Source: Tamlana crocina (GTDB lineage: Bacteria > Bacteroidota > Bacteroidia > Flavobacteriales > Flavobacteriaceae). Taken from it: a stretch of DNA of 64,000 nt. The notes under the pieces are model-generated. The model did no database searches, was not told where the DNA came from, and saw nothing but the letters and a program-made list of their open reading frames with translations. The translations under genes were made by a program, and so were the position numbers. The first letter of the stretch is position 1. The number at the start of each line of letters is the position of its first letter. Positions 684 to 8,059 of this stretch are shown here, in pieces. The stretch is taken from the NCBI GenBank assembly GCA_040429635.1, contig CP158972.1, forward strand, positions 1,622,001-1,686,000, written 5' to 3'.

Positions 684-2150
684 ATGAAAATAGAAAAGAT
701 AAACACACTAGGTGAATTAAAAATAACAGGTTATCAAAGTAAATCCATAAAAGATGAATTGCGAGATAACCTCATCAAGAAAATAAAAAATAAAGAAACG
801 ACATCTCAGGGCGTGCATGGTTACGAAAACACCGTAATCCCAGAATTGGAACGTGCCATTTTATCACGACATAATATCAATTTACTGGGGCTTCGAGGAC
901 AGGCCAAAACTCGATTGGCACGTTTAATGCTCAATTTATTGGATGAATATATCCCTTTTGTTGAAGGTTCCGAAATTAATGACGACCCATTCAATCCGAT
1001 TTCGAGGTACGCCAAAGAATTGATAAACGAAAAAGGAGATGATACCCCTATTTCTTGGTTGCACCGAAGTGAGCGTTTTGCAGAAAAACTAGCCACCCCC
1101 GATGTTACGGTAGCCGATATTATTGGCGATGTAGATCCCATAAAAGCGGCCAATTTAAAACTAAGTTATGCCGATGATAGAGTGATTCATTACGGTATGA
1201 TTCCTCGAGCCAACCGCTGTATTTTTGTAATAAACGAATTACCCGATTTGCAGGCCAGGATTCAGGTGGCGCTGTTCAATATTTTACAGGAAGGCGATAT
1301 TCAAATTAGAGGATTTAAGCTGCGCTTGCCGCTCGATATTCAATTTCTGTTTACAGCAAACCCCGAAGATTACACGAACCGCGGCAGTATTGTAACGCCA
1401 CTGAAAGACCGTATAGGTTCACAAATTTTAACCCATTATCCCATCGATATTGAAACCGCCAAACGGATTACCGAACAAGAAGCTAAATTGGTTGAAAATC
1501 AAAAAAGCAATGTGGTTGTTCCCGATTTGGCAAGAGATTTATTGGAGCAGATTGTTTTTGAAGCCCGTAAGAGCGACTACATTGATGCCAAAAGTGGGGT
1601 GAGTGCCCGATTGAGTATTACAGCTTTAGAGAATTTGATGAGTACCGCCGAGCGCCGAGCGCTAATTAGTGGCGACGCTAAAACCACCGTACGGCTTTCA
1701 GATTTTGTGGGTATCATTCCGGCTATAACCGGAAAAGTGGAGCTGGTTTACGAAGGCGAGCAGGAAGGTGCTGCAGTAGTGGCTTACAATCTGATTGGTG
1801 AAGCCGTAAAAAGTATCTTTCCAAAGCTGTTCCCAAAAATAGAAAAATTGCAAAAGCAAACCGATGAAAGTCCATATGACGACTTGGTATCGTGGTTTTT
1901 CAACGAAAAAGATGGTTTTGAACTGTTGGACGATATCAATGATGCCGAATACAAAAACTTGTTGGATGCTATTGCTCCATTAAACGATTTACTAGACAAA
2001 TTTCAGCCCGAAACTCAAAAGAAAGACCAGTATTTTATTAAAGAGTTTATTCTTTGGGCATTGGTAGAATTTAAACTTTTAAGTAAAAAGCGCTTTTCGG
2101 AAGGACTTCAGTTTAAAGATCCCTACGGTAGTTTTATTAGTGGTATTTAA
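684..2150 (+). CDS. MoxR/Mg-chelatase-subunit-I-like AAA+ ATPase
   Basis: A 488-residue AAA+ ATPase. Visible motifs are Walker A GLRGQAKT (69-76), a Walker B-like strand CIFVINEL (179-186), sensor 1 FTANPEDY (223-230) and a conserved basic stretch PLKDRIGS (239-246) that may supply the arginine finger. Walker B reads NE where most relatives have DE; the glutamate that activates water is kept, the magnesium-coordinating aspartate is replaced by asparagine. The rest of the protein is helical, including an acidic C-terminal region (about 390-450). The upstream VWA gene is its probable functional partner, since such ATPases remodel substrates through a VWA protein. A chelatase role cannot be assigned, because no tetrapyrrole genes are nearby. 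It starts at the first ATG, 104 bases past the VWA stop. Confidence 0.85.
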   Translation: MKIEKINTLGELKITGYQSKSIKDELRDNLIKKIKNKETTSQGVHGYENTVIPELERAILSRHNINLLGLRGQAKTRLARLMLNLLDEYIPFVEGSEINDDPFNPISRYAKELINEKGDDTPISWLHRSERFAEKLATPDVTVADIIGDVDPIKAANLKLSYADDRVIHYGMIPRANRCIFVINELPDLQARIQVALFNILQEGDIQIRGFKLRLPLDIQFLFTANPEDYTNRGSIVTPLKDRIGSQILTHYPIDIETAKRITEQEAKLVENQKSNVVVPDLARDLLEQIVFEARKSDYIDAKSGVSARLSITALENLMSTAERRALISGDAKTTVRLSDFVGIIPAITGKVELVYEGEQEGAAVVAYNLIGEAVKSIFPKLFPKIEKLQKQTDESPYDDLVSWFFNEKDGFELLDDINDAEYKNLLDAIAPLNDLLDKFQPETQKKDQYFIKEFILWALVEFKLLSKKRFSEGLQFKDPYGSFISGI

Positions 2151-2163
2151 TTGAAAGGAGTTG

Positions 2164-2219
2164 CCCGAGGATTTGCATCGGGTTTCCATTGAAATTGTCA
2201 TTCCCGTAAAAACGGGAAT
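2164..2219. repeat. Composite palindromic repeat: CCCGA/TCGGG hairpin plus ATTCCCGT hairpin
   Basis: Two hairpins in a row. CCCGA (2164-2168) pairs with TCGGG (2178-2182), and ATTCCCGT (2200-2207) pairs perfectly with ACGGGAAT (2212-2219) over an AAAA loop. The spacer contains TTGAAATTGTC. The same order of parts recurs at 35109-35190, where the second hairpin has a further palindrome in its loop. Confidence 0.7.
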
Positions 2220-2230
2220 CTAAATAAAAG

Positions 2231-2268
2231 AATACGATTTAGCATTCAAGGTTTAATCGTATTTTTTT
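2231..2268 (+). terminator. Rho-independent terminator after the VWA/AAA+ pair
   Basis: AATACGATT (2231-2239) pairs perfectly with AATCGTATT (2255-2263), with a 15-base loop and a T-rich tail. It lies 80 bases past the ATPase stop. The 318 bases between 2150 and 2469 hold only this terminator, the composite repeat just before it and an AT-rich leader for the next gene; the short open frame there resembles nothing. Confidence 0.75.
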
Positions 2269-2468
2269 ATTCCATTATTTTCAGTGCTTCAAATTTTCAA
2301 ATCTGTATTAAAAACCGTCTAATTTTTCGGGGTCTTGAAAAAGCACATTTTCAATTCGTATGAGGTAGTTTTTACTTTCCATTTTCATTATATTAAGCCA
2401 ATGAACATGTTTTTTAGGCTGTTTTTGATAAAAAAACGTCAAAAAACGCAAAATTTTGTTTTTAATAT

Positions 2469-4553
2469 ATGGATACAGATCTTGCAAAAAAGTACCCTAT
2501 CAAATTATTGTCGTTCGACATTGATAATACCTTAATTGAGTTTCACACCTTAAAGGGAAATTTTACAAAAATTTGGAATAAATACAAGGATGATACCGAT
2601 GTCCTGCTCACCTATAATACCGGCCGGCTTATTGGTGATGTAAAGAACTTAATAGAAACTGGGGTGCTGCCCGAGCCAGATTATATTATTTCTGGCGTGG
2701 GTACCCATATTTACGACTACCCAAACAAAAGGGTTGTAAAGGAATTTAACGATATACTGGACGAGGGGTGGGATTTATCAGCCGTTGAAAATATTGTTCA
2801 GAGCATAAATCACCCTATTAGCGAGCAGCCATTGCGGTTTCAGCACTCCTATAAAAGAAGTTACTTTTTTTACGATGCTACTCCAAATCTTATTGAAGGC
2901 ATTGAAAAGGATTTTGAAAAAGCGAATATGCACATCAACGTGGTATATTCTGGTGATAAATTTTTGGATATTCTGCCCAAATGGGCGAATAAAGGAAATG
3001 CTTTGCAGTGGTTACTTCAAAAATTGGATATAAATACCAGTGAAGTGCTTGTGGCTGGAGATAGTGGTAACGATTCGGCGATGTTCGATTTAGAGGATGT
3101 TAAGGGTATAGTTGTGGCCAATGCGCATGAAGAATTATATAAGTTTACAAAATACCGACAAATTTATCACGCTGAAGGCGAGCATGGCAACGGTGTTGTT
3201 GAAGGATTGGTGTTTTATGGTATTTTACCAAAAGAAGCATTGGCTTGTATGGATAAAGACCATTCCGATGATTTTATTATTCAAAAGGAGCTTAGCAATA
3301 TTGCGCAAGAGGATGAAGACGAGAAAATAGCATTAATAAAAGAAGGTTACGTAAAAGCGGTTGAAGCGCTTAAAAAGAACATCACGCCATTGGGTTTTTC
3401 GGCTTGTTCGATAGAAGATAACGTTCCAAGCGGTACCGATGAAAACTATCACAGCGTTTGGGCGCGAGATGGGGCTATCACAGTTATTGGCTCGTTGCCT
3501 TTAATTCGCGATAAGGAAATCCACCAATGCCAACGGCAAACTTTGATTACCTTGTTTGAACACATTTCACGCAACGGGCAAATTCCTTCTAATGTGCGGA
3601 TTAAGGATAATGTGCCCGATTATTCAGGGGTAGGGGGCATTTGCTCTATCGACAGTGGAATTTGGGTAGTGATTGCCTTTTACGAATATGTAAATGTTAC
3701 AAAAGATATCGATTTTCTTCGAAAGTATATTTCAGATATAAAAGAAACCATGCGTTGGTTGGGGGCGCACGATAGTAACAACGATGCACTGTTGGAAATA
3801 CCTGAAGCTGGCGATTGGACCGATTTATTCGGCGGAAGCTACAACATCCTTTATGACGAAATCCTTTGGTATCGAGCTAATGTTTGTTTCGGTAGAATGC
3901 TGGAAATGTTGGGTGAATACGAAGAAGCCGGTGAATACATCCGATGGTCACAAGTCATAAAAAAAGAAATACTCATAAACTTTTGGCCCTCCACGCAACA
4001 AAAATTATTTCAGTCCGTTTCTTTCGCCGAGCGACAGTTCACATTGGGAGATACCTCGTATTTAATTGCCCAAACCACGCCTTTCGATTTTGGTTGGCGT
4101 TGCGATGTATTTGGCAATGTTTTGGCCTTTTTGCACGGCACCGTCGATGCCGAAAAGGCGCACCAAACCTTTAAGTTTATGTTGGGTGTTGGGGTAAACG
4201 ATCCTTTTCCGGTTTCGAATGTGTATCCCGTAGTTACTCCCGGAGATCCTGATTGGAAACCTTACTATACTGTTAATTTATTGAATCTTCCGCACCATTA
4301 CCACAATGGTGGTATTTGGCCTTTTGTAGGCGGATTTTGGGTGAAATTCATCAATAAACTGGGCTTAAAGGATGTCGCGGTTTCCGAGTTGTATAAGCTA
4401 GCATTAATCAACAAAGAAGGCTTGACCGAAGAATGGGAGTTCACCGAATGGGCGCACGGTACCACTGGAAAAGCTATGGGGAAAGCCTATCAAGCTTGGT
4501 CGGCGGCCCAGTACATTTCAGCATGTCATGATTTAAACATAATTAACAAATAA
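2469..4553 (+). CDS. Fusion: sucrose-phosphate-phosphatase-like HAD domain + GH100/neutral-invertase-like domain
   Basis: A 694-residue two-domain protein. Residues 1 to about 255 are a HAD-IIB phosphatase of the sucrose-6-phosphate phosphatase type: motif I D17-I-D19-N-T, TYNTGR (48-53), Lys175 in NKGNAL, and GDSGND (197-202). Residues about 285-694 form an (alpha/alpha)6 glycosidase region. Its landmarks match alkaline/neutral invertases in order: VWARDG (330-335), SIDSGIW (393-399), EAGDWTD (446-452), DEILWYRA (463-470), YHNGGIWPF (611-619) and a C-terminal GK...GKAYQAWS stretch (668-678). Asp395 and Glu660 are my candidates for the catalytic acids. Similarity to glycogen-debranching glucosidases of the same fold cannot be excluded. 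The gene precedes a sucrose-phosphate-synthase-like glycosyltransferase by 10 bases, so one operon encodes synthase, phosphatase and hydrolase. Substrate identity is inference. The start is the first ATG before motif I. Confidence 0.8.
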   Translation: MDTDLAKKYPIKLLSFDIDNTLIEFHTLKGNFTKIWNKYKDDTDVLLTYNTGRLIGDVKNLIETGVLPEPDYIISGVGTHIYDYPNKRVVKEFNDILDEGWDLSAVENIVQSINHPISEQPLRFQHSYKRSYFFYDATPNLIEGIEKDFEKANMHINVVYSGDKFLDILPKWANKGNALQWLLQKLDINTSEVLVAGDSGNDSAMFDLEDVKGIVVANAHEELYKFTKYRQIYHAEGEHGNGVVEGLVFYGILPKEALACMDKDHSDDFIIQKELSNIAQEDEDEKIALIKEGYVKAVEALKKNITPLGFSACSIEDNVPSGTDENYHSVWARDGAITVIGSLPLIRDKEIHQCQRQTLITLFEHISRNGQIPSNVRIKDNVPDYSGVGGICSIDSGIWVVIAFYEYVNVTKDIDFLRKYISDIKETMRWLGAHDSNNDALLEIPEAGDWTDLFGGSYNILYDEILWYRANVCFGRMLEMLGEYEEAGEYIRWSQVIKKEILINFWPSTQQKLFQSVSFAERQFTLGDTSYLIAQTTPFDFGWRCDVFGNVLAFLHGTVDAEKAHQTFKFMLGVGVNDPFPVSNVYPVVTPGDPDWKPYYTVNLLNLPHHYHNGGIWPFVGGFWVKFINKLGLKDVAVSELYKLALINKEGLTEEWEFTEWAHGTTGKAMGKAYQAWSAAQYISACHDLNIINK

Positions 4554-4563
4554 ATACAAAACT

Positions 4564-5841
4564 ATGAAGTCAATTTTAATGATATCTCTGCACGGATACG
4601 TTGGTGCAAACGCCGAATTAGGAAAACCAGATACAGGAGGGCAAGTAGTTTATGTGTTAGAGCTGGCCGAGCGTTTTAGCCGATTGGGAAAGCGTGTGGA
4701 TTTGGTAACCCGACAATTTGAAGACCAACCAGAATACGACCATGTGGATGAAAATTATAGCGTTTGGCGTATTCCTTTTGGTGGAAAGAAATTCATCCGA
4801 AAGGAAGATATGCACGACCATCTAAAAAAGTTCGTTACCAATTGCTTGGCGGCGATTAAAAAGGAACGAAAAAAATACGATGTCGTTTACAGCCACTATT
4901 GGGATGCTGGTTGGGCCGGACAAAAAATTGCTGAAGAGTTGGGCATTTCGCATGTGCATACGCCGCATTCTTTAGGGTGGTGGAAACAGCATACCATGGG
5001 CAGCGATATGGACGAAAAGGAAATGGAACAGAAGTACCGTTTTAAGGAACGCATTAGAAAGGAATATTTCGTCTACCAAATGTGTAATTATGTCATCGCG
5101 ACCACATTGCCGCAAGTAGATTTGCTCACCCAACAATATGATGTATTGCCGAGAAATTGCGGAATGATTCCACCGGGAATTGATGAAAATAGATTTTACC
5201 CCGTACCTTCAAAAGAAAATGACAAAATACGAGCGAAATATGATATCCATCCCACTGATATTTTAGCATTGGGAAGAATGGCACACAACAAAGGGTATGA
5301 CTTGCTTTTACAGGCTTTGCCCACCGTTTTCGAATTATGCCCAGAAGCTAGGTTGGTGGCTGCCATTGGAGGAGACAATTCCAAACAAGACGACAAGGGG
5401 GTAGCAGGTTTGAAAAAATTGGCCAGTGAATTGGGAGTGGCCGACAGAATTGCTTGGAAAAGTTATATCGCTGACGAAGATTTAGCCAACGTATACCGCT
5501 CGGCGAATATTTTTGCCATGCCATCACGATACGAACCTTTTGGAATGGTGGCGATTGAAGCTATGGCCTGTGGAACACCAAGTGTGGTAACTGTACACGG
5601 TGGTTTGTACGATTTAATAGATTTTGGAAACCAGGCTTTGTTTGCCGATCCGCATAGACCGCTTGAATTTGGCGCGATGTTGTCAATGCCTTTATTGTAT
5701 CCTAAAATGCGTAACGAACTATCGGTTGAAGGAGCGCGATTTGCCCGCCGAAATTTTGGCTGGACAGGAATTGCAAAGCGGATGATTAAAGTATTTGAAA
5801 ATTCCATTAACCAACGCACCATGGAATCCAATATTTTTTAG
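4564..5841 (+). CDS. Sucrose-phosphate-synthase-like GT4 glycosyltransferase
   Basis: A 425-residue retaining glycosyltransferase of family GT4. The N-terminal loop SLHGYVGANAELG (8-20) followed by DTGGQVVYVLELA (23-35) is the sugar-acceptor signature of sucrose/sucrose-phosphate synthases. The nucleotide-sugar half has GRMAHNKGYD (237-246) and the E-x7-E pair Glu324/Glu332 within SRYEPFGMVAIEA. It lacks the C-terminal phosphatase domain of plant enzymes; that activity is supplied by the HAD domain encoded just upstream. A likely reaction is transfer from a nucleotide-hexose to fructose-6-phosphate. Mannosylfructose-phosphate synthase is a closely related alternative that sequence reading alone cannot separate. 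It is in the same operon as the upstream fusion gene and converges on the next gene with only 8 bases between stops. Confidence 0.85.
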   Translation: MKSILMISLHGYVGANAELGKPDTGGQVVYVLELAERFSRLGKRVDLVTRQFEDQPEYDHVDENYSVWRIPFGGKKFIRKEDMHDHLKKFVTNCLAAIKKERKKYDVVYSHYWDAGWAGQKIAEELGISHVHTPHSLGWWKQHTMGSDMDEKEMEQKYRFKERIRKEYFVYQMCNYVIATTLPQVDLLTQQYDVLPRNCGMIPPGIDENRFYPVPSKENDKIRAKYDIHPTDILALGRMAHNKGYDLLLQALPTVFELCPEARLVAAIGGDNSKQDDKGVAGLKKLASELGVADRIAWKSYIADEDLANVYRSANIFAMPSRYEPFGMVAIEAMACGTPSVVTVHGGLYDLIDFGNQALFADPHRPLEFGAMLSMPLLYPKMRNELSVEGARFARRNFGWTGIAKRMIKVFENSINQRTMESNIF

Positions 5842-5849
5842 CCTTTTTA

Positions 5850-6419
5850 TTAAGCTCTGGATTTTATGTTACTAGCGCATAATCGGATAATTTCGGTAAT
5901 GCGCTTTTTTCGTGTTTCTTCCCGTTTGGCTTGGTGGAGCCAGTACAGATAGCTTTTTCTGTAAGAAGGCGCAAAGTTTTTATAATTGGCGAAAGCCACT
6001 TTGCTTTTATCGAATGCTATTTGAAGGTCTTCAGGGATAATTCCATTTTCAACATCGTCCAAAGCGCTCCAGCTACCGTTTAGTTTGGCTGTTTCAACGG
6101 TTTTTAGTCCGCTGTCGTGCATTAAATCTTGGGCAATTAGTTCTTCAATGTATGTTTTGTTCAACGCACTCCAAACACTTTTTGAGTTACGTGGGGTAAA
6201 ATATTGGCGCCGTTTACCATTGCCTAAACTTTTTACCGTAGAATCTATCCAACCGTAGCAAAGGGCTACTTTTACTGCTTCCTCCCAGCGCATACTTTCT
6301 TTTTCGTGGTCAACTTTGTAAAATATCAGGTAAACGCCCTTGCTCGATGCGTGGTTTTCGTGTAGCCATTGCCGCCACTCGGTGTCGGTTTCAAAATATA
6401 ATTCGGGAAGTTTTTTCAA
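5850..6419 (-). CDS. YdeI/OmpD-associated-like protein (TTG start)
   Basis: A 189-residue soluble protein. The order FETDTEWRQWLHENHA, then VYLIFYK, then WEEAVKVALCYGWIDS, then FTPRNSKSVWSALNK is characteristic of the YdeI/OmdA-associated family, whose function is poorly defined. The conserved N-terminus begins at MKKLPELYF, which forces a TTG start at 6417-6419; the next in-frame ATG would remove the conserved start of the domain. It is the last gene of a minus-strand unit with the M1 and M28 peptidases, starting 2 bases past the M1 stop. The C-terminus is basic (REETRKKR). No signal peptide is visible, so it should be cytoplasmic. Family call is fairly sure, role unknown. Confidence 0.8.
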   Translation of the reverse strand: MKKLPELYFETDTEWRQWLHENHASSKGVYLIFYKVDHEKESMRWEEAVKVALCYGWIDSTVKSLGNGKRRQYFTPRNSKSVWSALNKTYIEELIAQDLMHDSGLKTVETAKLNGSWSALDDVENGIIPEDLQIAFDKSKVAFANYKNFAPSYRKSYLYWLHQAKREETRKKRITEIIRLCASNIKSRA

Positions 6420-6421
6420 AA

Positions 6422-8059
6422 CTAAAGGGCTTTACTTTCTACGTAAAAATCGTCATCTACTTTAAAGGTTTCAATATTCTCTTCAGCGGTTAATGTATTC
6501 CATGCTTGTTTTGGAAACAACCATTGTTCTTTACCGTTAATCGAAATCTGAACAGGCATATCGAAATTTTCAACCACATTATTCCAACGGAATTTAAGCG
6601 TGTTCTTTTTTATTGAATACTCTAAAGTAGGTACTTTCACGGTTCTTAAATACTGATTGAAAAATTCGGTTAAATCGATGCCTGTTTCAACAGAAAGGAA
6701 GTTTTCAATTTGTTGGGTGGTCACCGTTTGGTGATAAAACTGAACATTCATTTTTCTAAGAATATTTCGCCATTTTTCATCATCTTCAATCAATTGCCGA
6801 AGTGTATGTAGCATATTGGATCCTTTGTAGTACATGTCGCCAGAGCCTTCGTGGTTTACATTGTAAATACCTATTAAGGGACGGTCGTTTAAAATATTTT
6901 TTCGAGTGCCGATAACATATTCTGCTGCGGCTTGCTTTCCGTAAAAATAATCAAGAAATAGGTTCTCCGAATAAGCGGTAAAGCTTTCGTGAATCCACAT
7001 ATCGGCAATATCTTTATTGGTTATATTATTTGCAAACCATTCGTGCCCTGATTCATGGATGATGATAAAATCGAACTTTAAGCCCCATCCGGTACCCGAT
7101 AAATCGCGGCCCAAATAGCCATTTTTATATTGGTTACCATAGGTGACGCTGCTTTGGTGCTCCATGCCCAAATAAGGTACTTCTACCAATTTATAGCCAT
7201 CTTTATAAAAGGGGTACTGCCCAAACCAATGCTCGAAAGCTTCCATCATCTTTGGGGCATCTTTAAATTGCTCTTTGGCTTTTTCTAAATTGTATTTTAA
7301 CACGTAATAATCCATATCGAGATTTCCGGCCATGCCATCGTAAACTTCAGAAAAATGAGCATAATTGGCAATGTTTATATTAACACCATAATTGTTAATC
7401 GGGTTGCTAACAAACCAACGGTAAGTTTTGGTGTCGCCGTATTGCTCAACGCTTCTTAGCCTACCGTTTGAAACATTCATTAAATGGGAGGGCACATTAA
7501 CGCTTATTTGCATGCTGTCCACCTCATCGTACATGTGGTCTTTGCAAGGCCACCATACGCTAGCTCCCAAACCTTGACAGGAGGATGCGATAAAATGCTC
7601 GCCGTTTTGGTCTTTTTTCCAAGAAATGCCGCCGTCCCACGGGGCATTTACTGCCTGTTTTGGGTGTCCTTCATAAAACAATTCGATACTTTTAATATCG
7701 CCCATTTCTTGAGTCTCGGCAAGTGTTATAAAATGAGCATTGCCATCCTGTTCTATTTGTAAATCGGTACCATTTTGTGTGGCTTTCATCAATTTCATTG
7801 GTGCTTGCAAATCGATTTGCATCACCGAGTGGTTTTTCAAAACTTGGTACTGAACTATGTTTTTTCCTGAAATGAACTTATTGTCTGGGTCGACCTTAAT
7901 ATCGAGGTGATAATAGGTTAAATCCCACCATTCGCGCTCTGGGGTAATGCTACCTCTAAGAGTGTCTTGCCTTGTGAAATTAGCCTTGCCACTTAAAAGG
8001 CCTTGGGAAAAGCCAGTGCTTAACCATAGTAGAGTTATAATGGAAATTAGATTTTTCAT
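6422..8059 (-). CDS. M1 family metallopeptidase, secreted
   Basis: A 545-residue zinc aminopeptidase-like protein with a signal peptide ending near FSQ19. The zinc site is HESGH (335-339) with the third ligand Glu358 in WIHESF, exactly 19 residues further on, as in M1 enzymes. The exopeptidase loop reads GMEHQ (298-302), a variant of GAMEN seen in some M1 proteins. It lacks the long C-terminal helical domain of PepN and ends after a short beta-rich region. It lies 10 bases downstream of the M28 peptidase gene, so the two secreted peptidases are probably co-transcribed and act together on peptides in the periplasm or outside the cell. Family assignment is firm; endo- versus exopeptidase activity is not settled. 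Confidence 0.92.
   Translation of the reverse strand: MKNLISIITLLWLSTGFSQGLLSGKANFTRQDTLRGSITPEREWWDLTYYHLDIKVDPDNKFISGKNIVQYQVLKNHSVMQIDLQAPMKLMKATQNGTDLQIEQDGNAHFITLAETQEMGDIKSIELFYEGHPKQAVNAPWDGGISWKKDQNGEHFIASSCQGLGASVWWPCKDHMYDEVDSMQISVNVPSHLMNVSNGRLRSVEQYGDTKTYRWFVSNPINNYGVNINIANYAHFSEVYDGMAGNLDMDYYVLKYNLEKAKEQFKDAPKMMEAFEHWFGQYPFYKDGYKLVEVPYLGMEHQSSVTYGNQYKNGYLGRDLSGTGWGLKFDFIIIHESGHEWFANNITNKDIADMWIHESFTAYSENLFLDYFYGKQAAAEYVIGTRKNILNDRPLIGIYNVNHEGSGDMYYKGSNMLHTLRQLIEDDEKWRNILRKMNVQFYHQTVTTQQIENFLSVETGIDLTEFFNQYLRTVKVPTLEYSIKKNTLKFRWNNVVENFDMPVQISINGKEQWLFPKQAWNTLTAEENIETFKVDDDFYVESKAL

Follow-up and report, generated by a model that had tools for sequence, protein, structure and literature searches.

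Here we describe a two-gene cassette of Tamlana crocina, found in a window of 64,000 nucleotides (contig CP158972.1 of assembly GCA_040429635.1, positions 1,622,001 to 1,686,000 of the forward strand), which appears to both make and break a non-reducing fructose disaccharide, most likely a compatible solute. We put the probability of this reading at about two in three. The first gene encodes a HAD phosphatase of the sucrose-phosphate phosphatase (SPP) type covalently joined to a glycosidase domain that resembles invertases of glycoside hydrolase family 100 (GH100), and the second encodes a glycosyltransferase (GT) of family GT4. The kind of pathway is known; the new part is the covalent fusion of phosphatase and hydrolase, of which no description was found in open-licence PubMed Central full texts.

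A preliminary description of this DNA had placed an SPP-like HAD domain joined to a GH100-type domain 10 bases ahead of a GT4 gene. Both open reading frames (ORFs) are indeed found in this arrangement, the second starting 10 bases past the first (Table 1), and the Pfam assignments agree with it. Residues 12-251 of the fusion protein match S6PP (PF05116; E = 1.5e-61, 208.6 bits against a cut-off of 20.3), while the C-terminal part matches Glyco_hydro_100 (PF12899; E = 3.1e-14, 53 bits against a cut-off of 23.6) and also exceeds the cut-off of GDE_C (E = 5.5e-14). The GT reads PDTGGQVVYVLELA (window ORF 4564-5841). The suggested domain composition, the intact catalytic residues and a putative operon of disaccharide-phosphate synthase, phosphatase and hydrolase are thereby supported.

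The nature of the glycosidase domain was examined with a profile of 18 rows, the window protein included, in which members of the fusion group are 68-92% and outside rows 23-37% identical to the window sequence. This profile matches solved GH100 invertases over nearly their full length (E = 3.9e-24 to 9.2e-20) and the best glycogen debranching enzyme only locally (E = 1.3e-8); GH63-type hydrolases and debranching enzymes in general match it weakly. The grouping with glycogen-acting enzymes that had been named as a possible refutation did not occur, GH100 invertases being the best matches in the profile search. A glycogen-debranching reading of the C-terminal domain was rejected on the approximately 15 orders of magnitude by which the profile favours invertases over the best debranching enzyme. 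The same difference, together with the linkage to a fructokinase described below, makes it improbable that the domain acts on some other glycan (e.g. alpha-glucan ends) and couples the breakdown of a storage glycan to disaccharide synthesis, a possibility to which the GDE_C match of the single sequence and the weak profile matches to debranching and GH63-type enzymes would lend themselves.

In two alignments Asp188 of InvA falls opposite Asp452 of the fusion protein, and Glu414 of InvA opposite Glu660 (Asp188 is chain residue 189 as counted in the structural entry, the offset being our inference). D188 and E414 are reported as the catalytic residues of InvA in PMC6995568. The pair of catalytic acids proposed initially was Asp395 and Glu660. 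The glutamate is upheld; Asp395, although likewise invariant, lies opposite the PVDS motif of InvA, and it is Asp452 that stands opposite the catalytic aspartate. Both Asp452 and Glu660 are invariant in all 18 aligned rows, so that a loss of the catalytic acids in homologues, which would have spoken against the assignment, is not seen.

The cassette is well conserved among close relatives. A scan of one genome per species (84,980 species), which detects no more than close relatives, turned up 64 candidate stretches, 53 of which encode a relative. In every one of these 53 loci, among them a 7.6-kb contig with broken frames (L048), the fusion gene is followed by the GT gene. The motifs quoted at the outset are present, and conservation among the relatives is high: VWARDG, SIDSG, AGDWTDLF, YHNGGIWPF, F(T/N/S)EW, GDSGND, HTPHS and NKGYD are kept in 53/53 loci, and the HAD motifs DxD and KPDTGGQ in 52, the exception being the contig with broken frames. 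Motifs conserved across so many loci are not a product of chance. The record titles of the relatives name Algibacter, Tamlana, Polaribacter, Aestuariibaculum, Winogradskyella and Lutibacter, with a few metagenome-assembled genomes named to a higher group only. Four of them that were used as tree rows (L002, L025, L042 and L053) are labelled Flavobacteriaceae, the family to which the other genera presumably also belong.

Beyond these 53 loci, the survey of the Bacteroidota that had been recommended revealed one distant genome (G219, a member of a different family), in which the same fusion (57% identity) is again followed by the GT (69%). The fusion occurs in 17 of 199 genomes of the window's own family (nearly one genome per genus), and a GT matching at E <= 1e-90 in 2 of 395 genomes from across the phylum, i.e. 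that of the window and G219. Two fusion/GT copies, equally identical to the window, lie on a single contig of Tamlana nanhaiensis (L011 and L012, NZ_JTDV01000010.1); these are perhaps a recent duplication or an assembly artefact.

Sequence divergence is unevenly distributed along the fusion protein. Over eight pairs, identity amounts to 69-95% in the phosphatase, 87-99% in the glycosidase (GH) domain and 45-90% in the linker. Synonymous rates can be used for every part only between the window and L001, dS being saturated in one domain or more of each of the other seven pairs. In this pair the ratio of nonsynonymous to synonymous rates (dN/dS) is lowest in the GH domain (0.004), followed by the GT (0.007) and the phosphatase (0.032). 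Within the fusion, constraint is strongest on the GH half, and since dN/dS is low in both halves, neither of them is decaying. A degenerate fusion was ruled out by this result and by the conservation of the motifs. The GH domain might conceivably serve as a non-catalytic sensor or regulatory domain, a role that would suit fusion to a biosynthetic enzyme and for which there is no direct indication. With both catalytic acids invariant, and with slower evolution of the GH domain than of the phosphatase (dN of 0.003 versus 0.028 in the closest pair), we regard this as very improbable.

A further line of evidence comes from the neighbouring genes: in 28 of the 53 loci, the first ORF past the GT encodes a PfkB-type kinase (its identity was checked by Pfam on one locus, L003). 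The two genes are up to 431 bases apart and, at the other extreme, seem to overlap (L036); an apparent kinase fragment follows the GT in L053. The GT of the window is followed by a gene on the opposite strand, and the same genome encodes elsewhere a kinase that shares 69% identity with the L003 protein. Within the family, a kinase matching at E <= 1e-70 is present in 16 of the 17 genomes with the fusion versus 57 of the 182 without it (one-sided Fisher p = 4e-7 over 199 genomes, uncorrected for kinship). Such linkage suggests that free fructose is among the products.

According to the mechanism that we propose, the GT4 enzyme would move a hexose from a sugar nucleotide onto fructose-6-phosphate, as its family and acceptor-site residues suggest, and the N-terminal HAD domain, judged by its family and intact residues, would strip the phosphate and free the disaccharide. 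The C-terminal domain may then split the disaccharide into hexose and fructose by means of Asp452 and Glu660, and the PfkB fructokinase, adjacent in about half of the relatives and encoded elsewhere in the window's genome, would recycle fructose to fructose-6-phosphate. The fusion would hold phosphatase and hydrolase at a ratio of 1:1. With the ratio fixed in this way, net accumulation of the disaccharide would be set by regulation of the hydrolase or by solute conditions, and not by separate expression of the two activities.

Table 1. Coordinates of the cassette and its parts within the window
Feature	Position	Strand	Remarks
Fusion gene, S6PP-type HAD phosphatase and GH100-like glycosidase	2469..4553	+	694 amino acids; ORF and Pfam
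HAD/S6PP domain, residues ~12-251	2502..3221	+	DIDNT (D17/D19), GDSGND (197-202)
GH100-like domain, residues ~285-694	3321..4550	+	Asp452 at 3822-3824 and Glu660 at 4446-4448, by alignment
GT4 glycosyltransferase	4564..5841	+	425 amino acids; Pfam; presumed disaccharide-phosphate synthase
Intergenic stretch ahead of fusion gene	2151..2468	+	

Several observations weigh against a cassette that makes and breaks such a disaccharide. The arginine conserved among GH100 enzymes (R430 of InvB, according to PMC6995568) falls in a three-residue gap of the window protein, and the GDE_C score of the single sequence nearly equals its GH100 score. As R430 has no counterpart and the single sequence does not separate the two families, we call the domain GH100-like. 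Its relatives without a phosphatase are just 23-37% identical, and for this reason specificity is not transferable from them. The best plasmid-encoded relatives are three Deinococcus proteins (33-35% identity), named GH100 family in their records; their neighbours are genes for ABC-type sugar transport, ROK proteins and other sugar genes, none of them sucrose-specific. Finally, 25 of the 53 loci, and likewise the window, lack an intact kinase gene behind the GT.

Relatives of the GH domain also occur outside the fusion. A match at E <= 1e-10 was obtained in 18 genomes of the phylum, 16 of which encode it without a phosphatase; the corresponding ORFs comprise 381-425 residues in 15 genomes, and one of 719 residues (L060) is provisionally counted with them. 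A PfkB match lies beside the phosphatase-less gene in 4 of the 16 genomes (the flanks being short). In one of these four, L063, the other side of the GH gene is taken by an MFS gene matching the sucrose/proton symporter model (E = 2.4e-29, 102.5 of the 511 bits needed). A Variovorax relative is contained in a record without annotation. Three further genomes of the phylum (L119:4744-7698, L120:4932-7916 and L121:5297-8301) carry a GT4 gene, a GH100-like gene and a PIG-L/LmbE-like gene in a row, an arrangement reminiscent of MshA/MshB pairs (the first two genes of L119 were assigned by Pfam, the likeness of the third genes by eye).

The GT had originally been called a sucrose-phosphate synthase (SPS). 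Its membership of family GT4 and its loop sequence stand, while its identity as an SPS is not established: the protein scores 206.2 bits in the SPS model TIGR02472 against a curated cut-off of 576 (its score in the MshA model being 222 against 462.5) and is placed in a separate clade. SPS was not accepted as a settled name on these two grounds. Among the controls, the SPS-SPP proteins of Acidithiobacillus (654.9) and L080 (650.0) pass the SPS model, and that of L093 (551.2) falls just below it. The solved SPS of T. elongatus (aligned part of the chain) reaches, however, only 144.8 bits in this model and 285.8 in that of MshA. As it scores below the window GT, failure in the SPS model does not rule out SPS activity, and an outright denial of SPS identity for the GT was given up, this control having failed the same model more clearly.

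A tree was built from 18 GT rows, including nine SPS (rows from the PDB comprise aligned parts only). The window GT, four flavobacterial orthologues and the GTs of G219, Paracoccus and a phage form a clade of eight (support 100/98), and eight bacterial SPS rows form a separate one (100/97). The SPS of T. elongatus falls with MshA, so that the SPS rows do not constitute a single group; the branches of MshA and of the H. orenii SPS are long. The window GT shares 59% identity with the Paracoccus GT, 44% with that of the phage and 25-33% with the SPS rows. Genuine SPS are thus spread over at least two clades, and the window GT might represent a third type of SPS or a different synthase. Residues R105, H158, R178, R249 and E331 of the SPS structure 6kih correspond to K80, H135, R163, R238 and E324 of the GT (the numbering offset of 3 was deduced by us), and R253 to N242, a position at which the other SPS rows carry R, K or H. 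Contact residues of 6kih for sucrose-6-phosphate, UDP and glucose are named in PMC9971976.

The clade that unites the window GT with those of Paracoccus and the phage, apart from all nine SPS rows (at most 33% identity), the S6PP-type HAD genes that also adjoin these two GTs, and the asparagine N242 would fit mannosylfructose as the product. The GT would then be a mannosylfructose-phosphate synthase using GDP-mannose, and the GH domain a mannosylfructose hydrolase. Such a product must nevertheless be reconciled with sucrose being the substrate of GH100 enzymes, with a genuine SPS (that of T. elongatus) likewise lying outside the main SPS clade, and with the phosphatase domain, which retains the three glucose-contacting residues of SPP. 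In an L-INS-i alignment these are Q120, K129 and N201, corresponding to Q107, K116 and N189 of the Synechocystis enzyme, which contact the glucose ring according to PMC9971976. The assignment of Q120 depends on the aligner, the phmmer alignment putting Q107 one residue off. All three residues are retained in the phage HAD protein, and the Paracoccus HAD protein is without the glutamine.

The retained glucose contacts are readily accommodated if the cassette consists of a divergent SPS, an SPP and a GH100-type invertase, with sucrose as the product. GH100 as the best profile match, the T. elongatus SPS scoring under the window GT, the sucrose-symporter-like and PfkB genes adjoining the GH relative of L063, and the GH32-like genes found next to both SPS-SPP and the Paracoccus member of the GT clade point in the same direction. 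Sucrose is harder to square with the separation of the GT from the main bacterial SPS and with its low score in the SPS model relative to the cut-off and to the SPS-SPP proteins. The HAD domain also misses both SPP equivalog cut-offs (TIGR01485, 157.5 of 183.65 bits; TIGR02471, 136.6 of 209.75), which is weak evidence because the SPP part of L093 misses both as well. As far as can be judged from sequence, the separate GT clade would leave room for another donor, and sucrose would agree with the retained SPP contacts and with the resemblance to GH100. Sucrose and a mannosylfructose-type disaccharide therefore both remain serious candidates, each with somewhat less than an even chance, the T. 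elongatus control having shifted the odds slightly towards sucrose; any other product would be much less probable.

It is also conceivable, though rather unlikely, that marine Bacteroidota possess a dedicated mannosylfructose cycle, in which the phosphatase is fused to a mannosylfructose-specific hydrolase to form an osmotic switch. Depending on salt, newly released solute would then be retained or cleaved, with plasmids and phage as carriers of related GT/phosphatase pairs. We know of no dedicated intracellular mannosylfructose hydrolase. Whichever the sugar, a cassette that makes and breaks a fructose disaccharide would, if confirmed, name a solute pathway for a widespread group of marine bacteria and give a role to a fusion otherwise known just by the general family names of its parts. 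It would also provide a simple case of futile-cycle avoidance, with the last synthetic and the degrading enzyme in one protein. The placement of an SPS-like GT in a separate clade means, in addition, that sucrose should not be assumed from likeness.

The preliminary description considered it odd that making and breaking of a sugar should be linked. This applies to the covalent fusion, which is unusual, and not to linkage as such, as clusters of this kind recur with unrelated breaking enzymes. A transglycosylase role, another idea voiced there, is neither favoured nor opposed by the present observations. We identified 26 S6PP genes (E <= 1e-25) in 296 genomes of the phylum, comprising 23 SPS-SPP fusions, two SPP-GH fusions (the window and G219) and one S6PP-GT20 fusion. 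Beside the 23 SPS-SPP fusions there is a GH32-like gene in 8 cases, an ORF of the sucrose synthase kind in 10 and neither in 5 (short flank). One neighbour of each type was verified by Pfam: the GH32-like gene of L098 (28.5 bits, cut-off 22.1) and the sucrose-synthase-kind gene of L122, a locus that also has a PfkB gene. On Acidithiobacillus p6, genes for MFS, PfkB, a genuine GH100 (E = 9e-188) and SPS-SPP follow one another, and plasmid p1 of Paracoccus sp. TOH carries a GH32-like gene (24.6 bits, cut-off 22.1), HAD and GT (L075:7677-11269). The Paracoccus GH32-like protein is 41-45% identical to those beside SPS-SPP in the window's phylum, and plasmid relatives of the Paracoccus HAD protein were found in 7 records. 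Clustering of synthesis with breakdown is common and makes use of unrelated breaking enzymes.

A member of the GT clade (44% identity to the window GT) was also found on a tailed-phage contig (L123:4829-7964, uncultivated virus genome 3300033149_003834 of IMG/VR; see also L124 and L125), where it is directly followed by an S6PP-type phosphatase gene (E = 2.4e-55). This pair possibly represents phage-borne genes for disaccharide synthesis. The phage nature of the contig rests on portal, major head and tape-measure matches; a search of the record for the terminase PF03237 found none, and the 320-residue ORF ahead of the GT gave no Pfam or PHROGs match. As for the surroundings of the cassette itself, a search of window positions 2100-6450 against Rfam at the gathering threshold gave no match, and no motif is claimed for the upstream regions of the window and 14 loci. 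The lone fructokinase orthologue of the same genome (L115:5692-8525; G000:C1, about 201691-204524) is preceded by an ORF resembling a DNA cytosine methyltransferase (by eye) and a second ORF, perhaps a restriction-modification insertion.

A mannosylfructose pathway has reportedly been found in Agrobacterium; its synthase is said to be SPS-like and its family alphaproteobacterial. The Paracoccus TOH cluster shares with the window a GT of the same clade and an S6PP-type HAD gene, while differing in that the HAD protein is encoded separately and its neighbour is GH32-like rather than GH100-like. Its record does not name mannosylfructose genes, and the cluster is a possible relative of the Agrobacterium pathway only. 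In the literature, the name mfpsA labels a gene in the legend to a figure of PMC7356697, and the Agrobacterium mannosylfructose paper is cited in PMC13308351.

With regard to the hydrolase, InvA and InvB of Anabaena and CINV1 are the best profile matches of the window domain, their catalytic Asp and Glu being aligned with it, and the GH100 of Acidithiobacillus is 21% identical. The window protein differs from these invertases by the missing InvB R430 position and by its fusion to a phosphatase. Another fusion from the same phylum (L105:1-2199, minus strand) resembles that of the window in having S6PP at its N-terminus, but the partner is a GT20 synthase, which scores 565.4 of the 569 bits of the glucosylglycerol-phosphate synthase model over the part available. 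A further parallel is provided by the bidomain SPS-SPP proteins of the Bacteroidota and Acidithiobacillus p6, in which an S6PP phosphatase is likewise joined to a partner and a probable fructose-releasing enzyme is encoded next door, accompanied in two cases by PfkB. In these proteins the phosphatase is joined to the synthase, whereas in the window it is joined to the hydrolase, and the GT is separate and belongs to another clade.

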